Source: a virus
Reading direction: 5' to 3' (one strand)
DNA length: 29,791 nucleotides
IMG/VR virus record: IMGVR_UViG_3300008450_000305
Coordinates: 1-29,791 of that record
The notes under the pieces are model-generated. The model searched no databases. It was given only the letters and a program-made list of their open reading frames with translations, and was not told the DNA's origin. The number at the start of each line of letters is the position of its first letter. Positions within the stretch are counted from its first letter, which is position 1. Both the position numbers and the translations under genes were made by a program. This document shows, piece after piece, positions 2,718 to 29,547 of the stretch.

Positions 2718-2963
2718 ATGAAAAAATTAACACAACAGCAGTTACAAGAAGTATTAGATTTGAATAATACTAAAAATCAAATCACCCAGCAGTTAGGTCA
2801 AATTGAATTACAAAAACTACAACTCTCCAATACAAAACAAGAACTTCTTGAATTGTACAAACAACTCATTGAACAAGAAAAACTCCTAGGAGAGCAATTA
2901 CAGGAAGAATATGGGGAGGGAACCATAAATATAGAGACAGGAGAGTTTACACCGAGTTCATAA
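2718..2963 (+). CDS. Small coiled-coil phage protein of unknown function
   Basis: The 81-aa protein has a long Gln/Leu/Glu-rich helix (residues about 3-65) with heptad-like hydrophobic spacing, then a short tail with YGEGTINIETGEF. From memory, small proteins with this plan (helix followed by YG...INI.TGE) recur in T4-like phages of marine bacteria without known function. The gene follows the fibre-like array by 10 bases and precedes the sheath gene, so a virion or tail-assembly role is plausible but unproven. The leader is A-rich with no Shine-Dalgarno sequence. Confidence 0.6.
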   Translation: MKKLTQQQLQEVLDLNNTKNQITQQLGQIELQKLQLSNTKQELLELYKQLIEQEKLLGEQLQEEYGEGTINIETGEFTPSS

Positions 2964-2990
2964 ATACAGAAAGGTTTCGATGGACTGATA

Positions 2991-3003
2991 CTATTTATTA
3001 AAA
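2991..3003 (+). promoter_or_regulatory. Candidate late-type promoter (CTATTTAT motif) for tail sheath
   Basis: CTATTTATTAAAA lies 49 bases before the sheath ATG. The same core recurs before the tape-measure gene, the 9609 gene, nrdB and all four homing endonucleases, with a close variant before the tube gene. There is no TTG 20 bases upstream, which fits a phage late promoter needing only a -10 element. Assignment rests on recurrence and position. Confidence 0.4.
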
Positions 3004-5340: not shown

Positions 5341-5373
5341 TACCGTGTAATTAACTATTACTTTTTAAAACTT

Positions 5374-5408
5374 ATGCCTATTTATAATAAAGTAAATAGG
5401 CATTTTTT
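5374..5408 (+). terminator. Intrinsic terminator of sheath-tube unit, with embedded CTATTTAT motif
   Basis: An 11-bp perfect stem (ATGCCTATTTA at 5374-5384 with TAAATAGGCAT at 5393-5403) with an 8-base loop runs into a T-tract at 5403-5408. The next base is the A of the HNH gene's ATG. The left arm and loop contain CTATTTATAATAA (5378-5390), the candidate late-promoter core, so the site may both end the tube transcript and start a new one. Confidence 0.8.
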
Positions 5409-6050
5409 ATGGAACAATATTTTAGAATAATTAGACAAATTCTACAAGAGAATAGAAAAAAGAATGAAGGAGTCTATTATGAGGCACATCATATTATTCC
5501 TCAAAGTTTTGGAAAGAGATCAACAACAGTATTACTGACACCAGAAGAACATTTTACAGTTCATAAAATACTAGCAGAGTACTGGAAAGAACATTCAATT
5601 TACGGAAAGAAGATGTTATGGGCTTTTCACAGAATTTCCTATGATGGAAAGAGAAAGCTAACAAAAGAGGAGTATGGGGAAGCTAGAAGATTGTTACAAG
5701 ATTTATGGAAAAGCGAAAAAAGTATTTCACATAAAGAAAAAATAGCAATTGCACTAAAAGGCAATACAAACAACTCCACAAGAGTATTTAAAGGAATGAA
5801 ATCCGACATGACAGAAGAAGGTAGAGCTTCTTTATCAAAAAAAACAATTGAACGACTAACAGGAAGTAAACAGTGGTCAGGAGGTCCCTATACTGTTGAA
5901 TTCGAAACAGGAAAACTGTTTACAGAAGCAAGCTACCCAGCCCTATCAAAAGCTACAGGAATAAAGTGGACAACTCTGCAGAAGAGGTTGGTAGAATCTA
6001 AAAACCCTGGCAAATTCGTAAGAGGTTGGAAAATCTATAGAGGAGAGTAG
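5409..6050 (+). CDS. HNH homing endonuclease (free-standing)
   Basis: The 213-aa protein has an N-terminal HNH-like site: EAHHIIPQSF (His27-His28) and TPEEHFTVH (His48, His52). The middle residue, Asn in the two related proteins of this window (GG...NL.RL), is Thr here and the intervening loop is shorter, so cleavage activity may be altered. Residues of about 105-160 are basic linker resembling NUMOD-type DNA-binding modules. The C-terminal part (ASYPALSKATGIKWTTLQKRL) looks like an intron-endonuclease helix-turn-helix repeat. The ATG directly abuts the T-tract of the tube terminator, and a promoter follows the stop, so the gene is a self-contained insertion between transcription units. Confidence 0.85.
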   Translation: MEQYFRIIRQILQENRKKNEGVYYEAHHIIPQSFGKRSTTVLLTPEEHFTVHKILAEYWKEHSIYGKKMLWAFHRISYDGKRKLTKEEYGEARRLLQDLWKSEKSISHKEKIAIALKGNTNNSTRVFKGMKSDMTEEGRASLSKKTIERLTGSKQWSGGPYTVEFETGKLFTEASYPALSKATGIKWTTLQKRLVESKNPGKFVRGWKIYRGE

Positions 6051-15360: not shown

Positions 15361-16686
15361 ATGTTTTATATAGTTGAATCACAAGATCAAATTGATCGAT
15401 TGAAAGGTTATGCAAATCAAGGAGCTTATGTTGAAGTAATTTCCTCGAATGATAACTACCACCCCATTCTTACCTATACCGTTGCAGTTTACATAAGACC
15501 TTTAGATTGTATTGAAGGATTTATTATTCCTATAAATCATACAGAAGGATTAAATGTAGATAAGGACCGTGTCTATGAACTGTTAAAGCAATTTGAAACA
15601 CTTTATACCTATGACAAAAAACAATTACTCTACCACTTTGTATTACCGGGAGTTATAGATATTTCATTACTAAATACAATGACCAATTTTGATAGAAAGG
15701 ATCTTCCTAAAACAAATTCTACATATAATTGGTTCTATAATAGAATGTCTGAATATAAAGACTTGAATGCAATTATTCCAATTGTAAAGCTGTATGAAAA
15801 ATGTGAGGATAATTACAAGCATTTAGATTGTATATTGGAATATGAAATACCGGAAGGATTTAATTTTTATAATAAAACTGCAACAACCGTTTTCTTTATG
15901 ATTGAGAGAGCAGGATTGAGAATTACTTATCAATCCTTCCTTGAATTATTCAAACCAAACAATCCAGTTTTTAGTATTCAAGACAGTATTATTTATACTT
16001 CTTATAATCTTAATAATAATACATCTCGTCCAACAAATGCTTTTAATTCTGTAAATTTTGCAGCCATTCCAAAAGCACCTGAATTTAGAAAAACAATTAT
16101 TCCTCAGAATGATTATTTTGTAGCATACGATTATGACGGTTATCATCTTAGGTTATTATGTGAACAAATAGGGTATAACTTAACAAATGAATCAGCACAT
16201 GCGCAATTGGCTAGACTTTATTTTGGTAAAGATGAAATAGCTGAAGAAGATTATGCAAAAGCAAAACAAATTAACTTTCATGCAATTTATGGAAAGATTC
16301 CGCCTGAGTATGCTTTTTTAGAGGTTTTTGAAAAGATGGAAAGGTATACATCATTACTGTGGAAGCAATTTAAAGAACAGGGATATGTACAGGATCCAAT
16401 ATCAGGTAAGAGGTTTACACAAGAACTGCCAGAAATGCATCCACAGAAGCTACTAAACTACCTTATGCAAAGTTTAGAGACAAGTAGAAATATTTTAATA
16501 CTAAAAGAATTATTAAAGTATCTTGAAGGAAAGAAAACCAGAATAGCCCTATATGTATACGATGCAATAATATTCGACTTTAGCAAAGAAGATGGAAAAG
16601 AGACGTTGGAAGAAATTCAAAGAATAATGGAATCGGAAGGAAGGTATCCGACAAAGGTAGAGTACGCAAGATCATTAGATTTTTAA
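15361..16686 (+). CDS. polA: Compact family A DNA polymerase
   Basis: The 441-aa protein carries the three pol-A motifs in order. Motif A is AYDYDGYHLRLL (Asp257 matches E. coli Pol I Asp705). It is followed by AHAQLARLYFG, matching the O-helix approach. Motif B is KQINFHAIYG (Lys302, Phe306, Tyr310 match K758, F762, Y766). Motif C is YVYDAIIFDF (Asp401 matches Asp882). Oddities: the steric-gate Glu710 position is His262, Arg754 aligns with Tyr298, and motif C reads YDA rather than HDE. The N-terminal 180 residues resemble an exonuclease-like fold but lack a DxE motif, so proofreading is probably absent or encoded elsewhere. It is far shorter than Pol I (928 aa), and the next gene is a homing endonuclease. 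It probably replicates the phage genome with the downstream replisome genes. Confidence 0.8.
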   Translation: MFYIVESQDQIDRLKGYANQGAYVEVISSNDNYHPILTYTVAVYIRPLDCIEGFIIPINHTEGLNVDKDRVYELLKQFETLYTYDKKQLLYHFVLPGVIDISLLNTMTNFDRKDLPKTNSTYNWFYNRMSEYKDLNAIIPIVKLYEKCEDNYKHLDCILEYEIPEGFNFYNKTATTVFFMIERAGLRITYQSFLELFKPNNPVFSIQDSIIYTSYNLNNNTSRPTNAFNSVNFAAIPKAPEFRKTIIPQNDYFVAYDYDGYHLRLLCEQIGYNLTNESAHAQLARLYFGKDEIAEEDYAKAKQINFHAIYGKIPPEYAFLEVFEKMERYTSLLWKQFKEQGYVQDPISGKRFTQELPEMHPQKLLNYLMQSLETSRNILILKELLKYLEGKKTRIALYVYDAIIFDFSKEDGKETLEEIQRIMESEGRYPTKVEYARSLDF

Positions 16687-16699
16687 GGGTTTTCTACAA

Positions 16700-16806
16700 A
16701 AAGTTGCTATTTATATATGTAGAGTAGAGGCTACAGATATAACTAAAACACCAATTAAAGCTTATGGCGAGTAAGGACCTCTACCCTGAAAGCCTAAGCT
16801 TTTTTT
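16700..16806 (+). ncRNA. Structured RNA element A: two hairpins joined by loop-loop pairing, ending in terminator
   Basis: Hairpin 1 is TGTAG (16718-16722) with CTACA (16731-16735) around an 8-base loop. Hairpin 2 is AAAGCTTA-T-GGC (16757-16768) with GCC-TAAGCTTT (16792-16802), ending in a T-tract (16800-16806). Loop 1 GTAGAGG (16724-16730) is complementary to CCTCTAC (16778-16784) in loop 2. Element B (26490-26598) has the same layout with changed but still complementary sequences in both helices, while unpaired segments (TAAA, AGTA, GAAA) are conserved. The element follows the polymerase stop and ends three bases before the GIY-YIG ATG. It may be a small RNA, a cis-regulatory leader or a structured terminator. 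It matches no family I know. Confidence 0.7.
16707..16722 (+). promoter_or_regulatory. Candidate promoter (CTATTTATATA) of structured RNA A
   Basis: CTATTTATATATGTAG sits at the start of RNA element A and is identical in element B (26498-26513). If active, transcription would begin near the first hairpin of the element. Confidence 0.35.
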
Positions 16807-16809
16807 ATT

Positions 16810-17493
16810 ATGATAGGAATTTATAAAATCACAAATCCAAAAGGTAAAATATATATAGGACAAAGTACTCTAATAGAAAAGAGGTGGAGTTGTTATAAAG
16901 CTCTTAACTGTGAAAATCAAGTTAGATTGTACCGTTCACTGCTAAAGCACGGTATTTCTGAGCATATATTTGAAGTGATAGAAGAATGTAATATTGAAGA
17001 ACTGAATACAAAAGAAAGATATTGGCAAGATTATTACCAAGTATTAGGAGAAGGTGGACTGAATTGTAAATTAACAAGAACAACAGATAAATCAGGAAAA
17101 CACTCAGAAGCATCTAAACAAAAGATGACAGAAACAAGAACAGGTCAAAAAAGAGGTCCACAAACAGCAGAACATATTGCAAAACGAACAGCACATGTAA
17201 AAGGAAAAACCTATGAAGAAATCCATGGAATTGAAAAAGCCAGAGAGCTTAAAGAAAATAAAAGACTGAAAATGACAGGAATTAGGAAAGGTCCTTTACC
17301 TGAAGAGTGGCGAAACAATATTAGCAAAGCAAGGGTAGGAAACTTCAGAGAAGGAACACACCACTCAGAAGCAACTATCCAGAAAATGAAAAAACCTAAA
17401 GAGAGAGTAGAATGTCCACACTGTAAGCAAATTGGAGGAAATTCCCAAATGACTAGATGGCATTTTGAAAATTGCAAAAATAAAGAGTTGTAA
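16810..17493 (+). CDS. GIY-YIG homing endonuclease with NUMOD3-like repeats and C-terminal zinc finger
   Basis: The 227-aa protein opens with the catalytic GIY-YIG module: GIYKITNPKGKIYIG (residues 3-17), Arg25 and Glu69 (NTKERYW) in the expected order. Residues about 95-190 carry repeats of the type HSEASKQKMTETRTG and HSEATIQKMKK, matching NUMOD3 DNA-binding elements. The C-terminus has CPHC, then after about 14 residues H...C, a plausible zinc finger. The architecture resembles T4 Seg or I-TevI-like enzymes. It starts directly after the terminator of RNA element A and a promoter overlaps its stop, so it is an independent insertion between polymerase and SSB genes. Its target is unknown. 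Confidence 0.9.
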   Translation: MIGIYKITNPKGKIYIGQSTLIEKRWSCYKALNCENQVRLYRSLLKHGISEHIFEVIEECNIEELNTKERYWQDYYQVLGEGGLNCKLTRTTDKSGKHSEASKQKMTETRTGQKRGPQTAEHIAKRTAHVKGKTYEEIHGIEKARELKENKRLKMTGIRKGPLPEEWRNNISKARVGNFREGTHHSEATIQKMKKPKERVECPHCKQIGGNSQMTRWHFENCKNKEL

Positions 17494-17516: not shown

Positions 17517-17557
17517 AAATAAAAATTTAGTTTTATAAAATAAAATCATATTTATAG

Positions 17558-23433: not shown

Positions 23434-23467
23434 TGATACTCGAATAGTAAAAAAATCTTTTTCTTGC

Positions 23468-23487
23468 CTATTTATTATAAATAAATA
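23468..23487 (+). promoter_or_regulatory. CTATTTAT motif in AT palindrome before HNH gene
   Basis: CTATTTATTATAAATAAATA starts 22 bases before the ATG at 23490. The arms TATTTATT (23469-23476) and AATAAATA (23480-23487) are complementary. It is a candidate late-type promoter; a weak hairpin is also possible. Confidence 0.35.
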
Positions 23488-23489
23488 CT

Positions 23490-24296
23490 ATGATAGATTG
23501 GCAAGAAATTTATAAAAAGTTCTTATTAGAAAGAAAAACAGATAAGCTAGAAGAAGTTACACATCGACATCATATTGTGCCGAGATACGAAGGAGGTAGC
23601 GATGATGAGAGTAATTTAATAAGACTATCTATTAAGGATCACGCAACAGCCCATTGGCTACGGTACAAGTGGTTGGGAAAACTACAAGATAAGGTAGCAT
23701 GGCTTATGATATCGGGAAAGACAAAGGAAGGTGAGAGGTTAAGAATATTGCTTGCATTTGAAAAATACACTACTGAAGATAGAAGACAGGTAATGAAAAC
23801 TCAGAATCCAATGCATATTCCTGGAAATATAGAAAAAGCTTTAGAAACCAAAAGACAGAGGTATGAAGGAAATTATCACTCTAAACAAGGACTTGAGAGA
23901 ATAAGAACACTAAACAATACAGGAGGACAACATACACCAGAGGCTATTGAGAAACGCAAACAATCACAGAAACGTACCTTAGATGAGTTAGGAACAGAGG
24001 GAAGAAGGGAAAAATATGCAAGAGTAGGTGAATCAAATGGTAATTTTGGAACAAAAAGACCAGGGGAATTAGCAGGTAACTACGGCAAATCAAAAGGAAA
24101 GTATATAATAATACATCCAGACACAAGTCAAGAAATATTTGATAACTTAAAAGAAGCACTAAAAGTCTATGATGAAGGAACCCTAAAGAGAAATAGGAAT
24201 ACAAGAATACCAGTAAAAGGAGGAAAATTAAAAGGATGTTTAATTACATACGAAGAAAATATAAATTACGGAAACAACAAAAACCAAACTAAATGA
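23490..24296 (+). CDS. HNH homing endonuclease between nrdB and nrdA
   Basis: The 268-aa protein has a full HNH site: HRHHIVPRY (His27-His28), EGGSDDESNLIRL (Asn42) and KDHATAHWL (His51, His55). The middle is basic with short repeats (HTPEAIEKRKQSQK, GNFGTKRPGELAGNYGKSKG) typical of NUMOD-like DNA-binding linkers. The C-terminal segment (HPDTSQEIFDNLKEALKVYD) resembles a small helix-turn-helix module. Its stop overlaps the nrdA start as ATGA, so nrdA translation may depend on ribosomes finishing this gene. The gene interrupts the RNR operon without breaking either subunit. Confidence 0.88.
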   Translation: MIDWQEIYKKFLLERKTDKLEEVTHRHHIVPRYEGGSDDESNLIRLSIKDHATAHWLRYKWLGKLQDKVAWLMISGKTKEGERLRILLAFEKYTTEDRRQVMKTQNPMHIPGNIEKALETKRQRYEGNYHSKQGLERIRTLNNTGGQHTPEAIEKRKQSQKRTLDELGTEGRREKYARVGESNGNFGTKRPGELAGNYGKSKGKYIIIHPDTSQEIFDNLKEALKVYDEGTLKRNRNTRIPVKGGKLKGCLITYEENINYGNNKNQTK

Positions 24297-26489: not shown

Positions 26490-26598
26490 AAAAGTTGCTA
26501 TTTATATATGTAGAGTCGTAGCTACAAATATAAGTAAAAACATTAACTAAAGCTATAGGCAAGTAGAGACTACGACCTCGAAAGCCATAGCTTTTTTT
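26490..26598 (+). ncRNA. Structured RNA element B: paralogue of element A
   Basis: Hairpin 1 is TGTAG (26509-26513) with CTACA (26522-26526). Its loop segment GTCGTAG (26515-26521) pairs with CTACGAC (26570-26576). Hairpin 2 is AAAGCTAT-A-GGC (26549-26560) with GCC-ATAGCTTT (26584-26594), then a T-tract to 26598. Compared with element A, three of the seven loop-loop pairs and two hairpin-2 pairs differ and remain complementary. It follows the resolvase-like gene and ends three bases before an HNH gene ATG. It matches no RNA family I know; the topology recalls the pistol ribozyme but lacks its third stem. Confidence 0.7.
26498..26513 (+). promoter_or_regulatory. Candidate promoter (CTATTTATATA) of structured RNA B
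   Basis: CTATTTATATATGTAG is identical to the copy at 16707-16722 in element A, and lies at the start of RNA element B. Confidence 0.35.
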
Positions 26599-26601
26599 AT
26601 T

Positions 26602-27276
26602 ATGAATTATCAAAGAATTTATGACCAAATAATTGATCGAGCAAGAAATAGAGAATTGCAAGGATATAGCGAGAGGCATCATATTGTTCCAAAATGTATG
26701 GGAGGTTCTAATCAAAAAGAGAACCTTGTACGATTAAAAGCAAGAGAGCATTTTATCTGTCACCAACTATTAGTTTTTATACACCCTACAAATAAACAAA
26801 TAGCATATGCTTTTTGGGGAATGTGTAATCAATTAGGAAGTAAAAATAACAAAAGAGATTATAAAATATCAGCAAGAACTTATGAAACGGGAAGAGAATT
26901 TTTTGTACAAGCAATAAAAGGAAGAAAATGTACTTGGGGAGGTAAAATATCAGACAAGAAAAAAGGAGTGAGCCAAGGTAAAAGAACAGCAGAATCTATA
27001 ACAAAGCAAAAAGCAACAATAGCAAACAGTCCATATAAACATTCAAAACAAGCAAAGCAATTAATATCCCAAAAATTATCCAAGTATAAAAAAACAGAAA
27101 TACATAAACAAGCTATTTCAGCTACAATAAAAGCAAAAGGAATTAGACCTCCTTCGCAAGCAAAACAAGTTGAAATAGAAGGAAAAATTTACCCAAGTAT
27201 TAAAATAGCTTGTGAGCAGTTAGGACAGCCTAGACATAAAGTAAATAAAATAATAAAGAAAGTAGGTAACAGCTAA
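26602..27276 (+). CDS. HNH homing endonuclease
   Basis: The 224-aa protein has the HNH site SERHHIVPK (His26-His27), CMGGSNQKENLVRL (Asn41) and REHFICH (His50, His54). The middle is very basic (NUMOD-like, with TAESITKQKATIANS). The C-terminus KIYPSIKIACEQLGQPRHKV fits an intron-endonuclease repeat DNA-binding helix-turn-helix. It is clearly related to the HNH gene at 23490. The ATG follows the T-tract of RNA element B by three bases, and a degenerate promoter lies after its stop. The insertion separates the resolvase-like gene from the thioredoxin cluster. Confidence 0.88.
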   Translation: MNYQRIYDQIIDRARNRELQGYSERHHIVPKCMGGSNQKENLVRLKAREHFICHQLLVFIHPTNKQIAYAFWGMCNQLGSKNNKRDYKISARTYETGREFFVQAIKGRKCTWGGKISDKKKGVSQGKRTAESITKQKATIANSPYKHSKQAKQLISQKLSKYKKTEIHKQAISATIKAKGIRPPSQAKQVEIEGKIYPSIKIACEQLGQPRHKVNKIIKKVGNS

Positions 27277-28689: not shown

Positions 28690-29547
28690 ATGTCTAAAAA
28701 ACATGTTGTTGTTAGCCTCAGCGGCGGGATGGACTCAAGTACTTTATTACTTAGATGTCTAAAAGAATATGACACAGTTACTGCTATCAGCTTTGACTAT
28801 GGTCAAAAACACAGAGTAGAGCTAGAGAGAGCTCAATCATTGGTAGATTATATTAATCAAGAAGGTGATAACGAAACGTTGTTAGAGTATAAAAGCCCTT
28901 TTCCTGAAATTAACTACCATCAAATTCAATTAAACGGATTAGTTGATTTATTAGATTCAGCTTTAGTGACAGGAGGAGAAGATGTACCGGAAGGTCACTA
29001 TGCAGAAGATAATATGAAAGCGACAGTTGTTCCTAACAGAAACAAAATATTTGCTTCTATTACTCAAGCAGTAGCTTTATCAGTTGCAAATCGTACAGGA
29101 GAGACTTGTGATATTGCAATGGGAATCCACAGTGGTGATCATGCAATCTATCCAGACTGTAGACAAGAATTCAGAGATGCTGATGATCATGCTTTTAGAA
29201 TGGGTAACTGGGAAGCAGAAAGAGTAGGATATTTTACACCTTACTTAGAAGGAGATAAATTTACTATCTTGCAAGACGGAGAAGTATTATGTGAGGAATT
29301 AGGATTAGATTTTGATGAAGTTTATTCAAGAACTAATACTTCTTATAAACCAATATTACTAGCACATTTTGTCGAGGGTTTCACCTGGTACTCAGATTAT
29401 AAATCAGCTTCATCAGTTGAAAGAGTAGAAGCATTTATTAAGTTAGGAAGAAAAGATCCAGTAGAATACGCAGACGAAACAGGCCCAGTAACATGGGAAC
29501 ATGTAGTAAAAGAAGTAACAAAAGTATTAGATAATCATAACAAATAA
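28690..29547 (+). CDS. queC: QueC-like 7-cyano-7-deazaguanine synthase, zinc site replaced
   Basis: The 285-aa protein resembles QueC, which converts 7-carboxy-7-deazaguanine to preQ0 using ATP and ammonia. The ATP pyrophosphatase loop is SLSGGMDSSTLL (residues 9-20), followed by SFDYGQKH, VPNRNKIF and AMGIHSGDH, all QueC signatures, and ends with VERVEAF..LGRKDPVEY. The four zinc cysteines of QueC (SCY...CxxCxxCxxR) align here with Ser218, Asp236, Ser239 and Ser242, so the zinc site appears lost. Phage preQ0 genes serve DNA modification or tRNA queuosine; no other pathway gene is in the window. It could have an altered substrate. Confidence 0.85.
   Translation: MSKKHVVVSLSGGMDSSTLLLRCLKEYDTVTAISFDYGQKHRVELERAQSLVDYINQEGDNETLLEYKSPFPEINYHQIQLNGLVDLLDSALVTGGEDVPEGHYAEDNMKATVVPNRNKIFASITQAVALSVANRTGETCDIAMGIHSGDHAIYPDCRQEFRDADDHAFRMGNWEAERVGYFTPYLEGDKFTILQDGEVLCEELGLDFDEVYSRTNTSYKPILLAHFVEGFTWYSDYKSASSVERVEAFIKLGRKDPVEYADETGPVTWEHVVKEVTKVLDNHNK

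Follow-up and report, generated by a model that had tools for sequence, protein, structure and literature searches.

Background

What is the role of a folded RNA that occurs twice, with covarying sequences, in one viral contig? The window, i.e., the whole analysed stretch of 29,791 nucleotides of viral DNA, carries two such copies, A and B. An earlier note, made from the sequence alone, described each of them as two hairpins joined through their loops and proposed a free small RNA. On sequence comparison, A and B are members of a recurring set of folded RNA leaders, about 100-120 bases long from the putative promoter to the start codon of a homing endonuclease gene, a selfish gene whose product cuts DNA; we show on the same grounds their layout, the conservation of RNA structure and the position ahead of different endonuclease families. 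The leaders probably restrain the timing and the amount of endonuclease made.

Results

Both copies were confirmed by a sequence check at the positions where the earlier note had placed them, and the folds match its description (Table 1). The P1 hairpin of 5 bp with an 8-nt loop, the P2 stem of 11 bp with one bulge and the T tract are present in A and B; RNAfold, run independently, agrees and returns P1 and P2 for both (z -2.3 and -2.8). The 7-base complementarity between the loops was located (GTAGAGG/CCTCTAC in A and GTCGTAG/CTACGAC in B), and the five pairs reported as compensated between the copies were recovered, three in the loop-loop helix and two in P2. Two more are found in P3, which had been overlooked together with the RAGUA/GAAA loop and the endonuclease start codons directly following (16810 and 26602). 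By its sequence, the AGUA/GAAA internal loop may be a structural, loop-E-like motif of the sarcin-ricin type. P2 and P3 form in the predictions even without P1. A further helix, P0, between upstream AGTTG..TATTT and AAATA..CAACT of the linker was not supported (75% paired; covariation 0.148 against 0.118 in shuffled data, 52/500).

Table 1. Features of copies A and B and of the genes behind them, in window positions
Feature	Position	Strand	Details or basis
Copy A probable late-type phage promoter, TATTTATA	16708..16715	+	octamer enriched at phage gene starts
Copy A P1 hairpin	16718..16735	+	arms 16718-16722/16731-16735, TGTAG/CTACA, 5 bp
Copy A P1 loop	16723-16730	+	8 nt, A+GTAGAGG
Copy A kissing strand 1	16724..16730	+	GTAGAGG, partner 16778-16784
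Copy A linker	16736..16756	+	A-rich, single-stranded, by sequence
Copy A P2	16757..16802	+	arms 16757-16768/16792-16802, 11 bp, T16765 bulged
Copy A internal loop inside P2	16769-16773/16788-16791	+	RAGUA/GAAA
Copy A P3	16774-16776/16785-16787	+	3 bp, AGG/CCT
Copy A P3 hairpin loop	16777-16784	+	A+CCTCTAC
Copy A kissing strand 2	16778..16784	+	CCTCTAC, partner 16724-16730
Copy A T7 tract 3' of P2	16800..16806	+	intrinsic-terminator-like end, by sequence
GIY-YIG homing endonuclease gene behind copy A	16810..17493	+	PF01541 E 1.9e-5; phrog_314 E 7.4e-28
Copy B probable promoter, TATTTATA	26499..26506	+	as for copy A
Copy B P1 hairpin	26509..26526	+	arms 26509-26513/26522-26526; loop A+GTCGTAG
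Copy B kissing helix	26515-26521 with 26570-26576	+	GTCGTAG/CTACGAC
Copy B P2	26549..26594	+	arms 26549-26560/26584-26594, 11 bp, A26557 bulged
Copy B internal loop inside P2	26561-26565/26580-26583	+	AAGUA/GAAA
Copy B P3	26566-26568/26577-26579	+	GAG/CTC
Copy B P3 hairpin loop	26569-26576	+	A+CTACGAC
Copy B T7 tract	26592..26598	+	sequence
HNH-type homing endonuclease gene behind copy B	26602..27276	+	phrog_655 homing endonuclease E 4e-49

The covariance-model search proposed earlier was productive: pattern scans of viral contigs together with a model from 20 sequences gave 32 unique copies of the same kind (class I), a count that is not a frequency, since members of this class, as of class II below, were mostly fetched by motif from metagenomic contigs, many of them only fragments. 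In the alignment of 20 rows (A2), mostly obtained by patterns in which the seven loop positions were free or the partner strand was not included, the 7-bp kissing helix is Watson-Crick in 20/20 rows and has two-sided changes at 6/7 pairs. Such changes occur also at 4/5 pairs of P1, 5/11 of P2 and 2/3 of P3; AGUA and GAAA do not vary across the 20 sequences. Pairing cells are paired in 95% of cases vs 82% after shuffling, pairs with two-sided changes number 17 vs 7.7, and the covariation score is 0.389 vs 0.151 (0/500 shuffles), with slid controls at or below 0.104. The excess of G-U over A-C cells in the stems (42 vs 22 in the three class alignments together) modestly favours the plus strand as the RNA. 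We believe that selection on RNA structure, suggested earlier from two copies and including the long-range loop-loop helix, is well supported by this alignment and by the chimera comparison below.

Three matches (L050, L053 and L054) were discarded as chance pattern matches inside coding sequence, and antisense cmsearch matches (about 20-31 bits) that overlap forward elements were set aside. A weak class I match at 1494-1585 of L055 (41 bits; loops paired over 6 bp; TATTTATA absent) is followed by a gene lacking a Pfam or PHROG match and could be a true outlier or chance. In bacterial genomes the first pattern gave 0 loci and a looser one 43 loci, 0 of which passed the structural scan; BLASTN against a collection of cultured phages gave no usable match for class I, II or III. 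None of the three class models (R1, R2 and R3) finds a convincing match in the complete genome of the related phage immuto: the best hit of R1 has E 0.8 in 150 kb, and R2 and R3 give none in 160 kb.

Genes for relatives of the copy-B endonuclease, collected on the protein only, carry further leaders of identical layout. These relatives and a generic kissing-loop scan (70 matches, several of them in coding sequence, vs 17 in a single shuffled set without de-duplication) served to define class II, with 14 unique copies, and class III, with 19 including the divergent L173, L196, L207 and L371, which were placed there by layout. Each class is recognised through its own consensus; the class III model picks up class II weakly (E 0.001-0.07). 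The common layout consists of TATTTAT(A/T), a hairpin, an A-rich linker and a long stem, at the top of which a hairpin loop pairs with the first loop, and then of a T-rich tract and the start codon; classes II and III retain it without the AGUA/GAAA internal loop. Most members of classes I and II have a tract of T7-8; in some others it is T4-6 or interrupted.

The two loops are complementary over 6 bp or more, as assigned by a detection script (for L207 the loop pair so chosen differs from that assigned by eye), in 65/65 unique leaders of the three classes, and the distance from promoter to start codon is 98-119 nt. Pairing of at least 7 bp is found in 59/61 re-located leaders vs 32/1238 within-class chimeras, in which the left half of one leader was joined to a right half taken from a leader with another loop. 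Class models in which the loop pairing is not encoded still retrieve members that have it. Several leaders can occur together: class III occurs six times in one 52.7-kb record, and one 102-kb record contains four copies each of classes I and II. Loops within a record are not significantly kept distinct against cross-talk (0 identical pairs vs 0.61 expected, P 0.53).

The octamer TATTTATA was counted in the immuto_3-5A genome, where it occurs 28 times on the coding strand in 150 kb and its reverse complement 14 times; the ATG of an ORF of at least 60 aa lies within 40 nt 3' of 22/28 sites vs 7/14 for the reverse complement. It also stands there ahead of terminase, portal-like, sheath and tube genes. 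We presume that TATTTATA is probably a phage late promoter, the assignment being statistical, which agrees with the proposal that the CTATTTATATA motif marks the 5' end of the element. The A five nucleotides past the octamer, conserved in 20/22 sites, may be the transcription start; class I P1, which begins 3-7 nt past TATTTATA, would then lose 2-3 nt, and class II P1, about 11 nt past the promoter, none.

The complete genes downstream of the leaders are of homing-endonuclease type (GIY-YIG, HNH, NUMOD, endonuclease VII or DUF723); the exceptions are L032 and L108, which are truncated, and L055, the gene of which has no family match. Matches to phrog_314 were obtained for 34 and to phrog_655 for 28 of 58 downstream proteins; both are homing endonuclease families, and the two sets overlap. 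Others have matches to HNH, endonuclease VII or DUF723-type families. Some 7-15 nt separate the start codon from the base of P2, and this spacing is nearly constant within a class.

At the site of copy A, insert-free relatives join the end of a polymerase gene directly to the next gene. Their polymerase 3' sequence is found in the window downstream of the endonuclease gene, so that the leader and the gene together lie within the inserted stretch. The polymerase C-terminus at 16650-16690 of the window is unlike that of the insert-free relatives, the version of which persists at 17525-17557, as if the flank had been co-converted on homing. The same polymerase site has a class II leader in L104, L106 and L114, and an endonuclease gene without such a leader in L130 and L131. 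A Flavobacterium host is suggested only by relatedness to one phage group, which matches 22% of the queried stretch at about 80% DNA identity. The window further contains a QueC-type gene (28690-29547, PF06508), as does immuto, the annotation of which includes 7-deazaguanine and DpdA genes.

Leaders of another type were observed in the same phages. At 5373-5411 of the window, ATGCCTATTTATAATAAAGTAAATAGGCATTTTTTATG precedes a homing endonuclease gene at 5409; the presumed late promoter provides the 5' arm of a hairpin that resembles a terminator, with T6 behind it, and that late transcripts would lack. At 23460-23515, upstream TTTCTTGCC pairs with GGCAAGAAA, which lies in the coding region of the gene at 23490, and the promoter and start codon of this gene are enclosed between them. 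In L174, L180 and L170 (each at 2890-3003), the sequence 5' of TATTTATA pairs beside the start codon in the T4 style. Predicted openness of the start region rises from read-through to late transcripts from 0.27 to 0.71 at 5409 and from 0.43 to 0.67 at 23490; in kissing-loop leaders it changes little (0.40 to 0.48 and 0.35 to 0.46). The predictions thus have the ribosome-binding site covered only in read-through transcripts at 5409 and 23490 and not in the kissing-loop leaders, which do have, as T4-type leaders do, a homing endonuclease gene directly downstream.

Discussion

We consider it probable that the element serves a mobile homing endonuclease cassette as its 5' leader and, as an attenuator, lowers or delays expression. 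By sequence, the leaders have the composition of an intrinsic terminator or attenuator, a stable stem with a U tract right after it. With TATTTATA as a late promoter, we infer that the transcript would begin at, or slightly within, P1. The kissing loop would link the transcript's 5' end to the P2 tip, helping the terminator-like hairpin to fold and to remain folded. Most transcripts, whether from the own promoter or from upstream read-through, would end at the T tract or be translated poorly, the latter because the start codon is so close to the base of P2; a minority would read past the T tract and give the endonuclease at a low level and late. The role would equal that of the Shine-Dalgarno-sequestering hairpins and weak terminators of T4 endonuclease genes. 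Against this reading speak the poor T tracts (T4C, T3C) in some members, the possible loss of 2-3 nt of class I P1 with a start at the conserved A, and the small difference in predicted start-region openness between read-through and late transcripts; the requirement for a kissing loop is left unexplained because P2 is predicted to fold without P1.

It is tempting to propose, instead, a conditional terminator that senses the promoter used: read-through transcripts with full P1 would kiss and stop, and late transcripts starting inside P1 would escape. The logic is that of T4 I-TevI, with termination replacing Shine-Dalgarno sequestration. Class I P1 does lie in the expected start region, 3-7 nt past TATTTATA, and in further endonuclease genes of these phages (5409, 23490, L170 and L174) the promoter is part of an inhibitory hairpin, within its 5' arm. 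However, class II P1 would survive in late transcripts, and P2 with P3 is predicted without P1, so we consider this mechanism rather unlikely. The location of the promoter ahead of the structure and the prediction of P2 in both transcripts favour an attenuator within the leader itself.

The free small RNA of 80-90 nt proposed by the earlier note has become less supported: the 3' end abuts the endonuclease start codon at a near-constant spacing, and this recurs in three leader classes. As a trans-acting main product of 90-100 nt, with the endonuclease gene a mere neighbour, it would account for the promoter-like start, the compact fold and the terminator-like end; however, the 65 leaders stand ahead of an endonuclease-type gene wherever this can be judged, the start-codon spacing is nearly fixed per class, and the free, compensated variation of the loops does not suggest a fixed outside target. 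We regard it as improbable; a terminated RNA of 90-100 nt could be a by-product of the leader. Protection of the 5' end, i.e., a kissing loop that guards the endonuclease mRNA against decay with attenuation absent, fits the position of P1 at the presumed 5' end but leaves the T-rich tract behind P2 and the near-constant start-codon spacing unexplained, and seems quite improbable. A riboswitch or self-cleaving ribozyme, to which the pseudoknotted fold and the unvarying AGUA/GAAA internal loop of class I might point, is highly improbable: that loop reads as a structural motif and is absent from classes II and III despite the same layout, no aptamer-like conserved core was seen, and the statement that no known riboswitch or ribozyme is matched holds for Rfam 15, where no family reached its gathering score and only sub-threshold matches appeared. 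Pistol, the closest ribozyme, likewise pairs a hairpin loop with a strand further downstream but is built with a third stem and a conserved core of its own, and is absent among the Rfam matches at E up to 10.

The attenuating leader would mean that restraint of a selfish nuclease can be independent of hiding the Shine-Dalgarno sequence. We offer tentatively the broader view that kissing-loop leaders arose or diversified as sequence-unrelated classes, and that a tertiary contact, not Shine-Dalgarno sequestration, gates free-standing endonuclease genes in phages of hosts that rarely use Shine-Dalgarno. The work yields three covariance models for structured RNAs without an Rfam match, all linked to mobile endonuclease genes, and the covariation of the loops makes the regulatory idea directly testable with break-and-restore mutants. 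No description of such leaders was found in open-licence papers; they appear to be undescribed so far, in relatives of a Flavobacterium phage.

That leader RNA can hold back the expression of an endonuclease is itself a known theme, as follows from the late promoters with leader hairpins at T4 endonuclease genes and from the internal terminator of T4 mobE, which stops about 30% of transcripts (PMC2988022). The leaders of I-TevI/II/III, segB and Aeh1 mobE similarly combine a homing endonuclease gene with an RNA structure at the start codon, and have a late-type promoter nearby, of which TATTTATA would be the putative counterpart; their hairpins sequester the Shine-Dalgarno sequence and are missing from late transcripts (PMC2988022), whereas the leaders described here fold as two hairpins with kissing loops, lack an evident Shine-Dalgarno sequence and have a T-rich tract, and P2 is predicted to stay in late transcripts. 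The intrinsic terminator of mobE resembles the putative one of these leaders in its position early in the transcript of an endonuclease gene, but lies within the coding region, and a kissing loop is not described for it (PMC2988022). In seg43(25) of Aeromonas phage 25, a stable hairpin likewise stands just upstream of the start region and leaves the start uncovered; it is given as a hairpin upstream of the RBS, and loop-loop pairing is not described (PMC2988022). We presume that the kissing-loop leaders are analogous to the T4 leader hairpins and not homologous to them.
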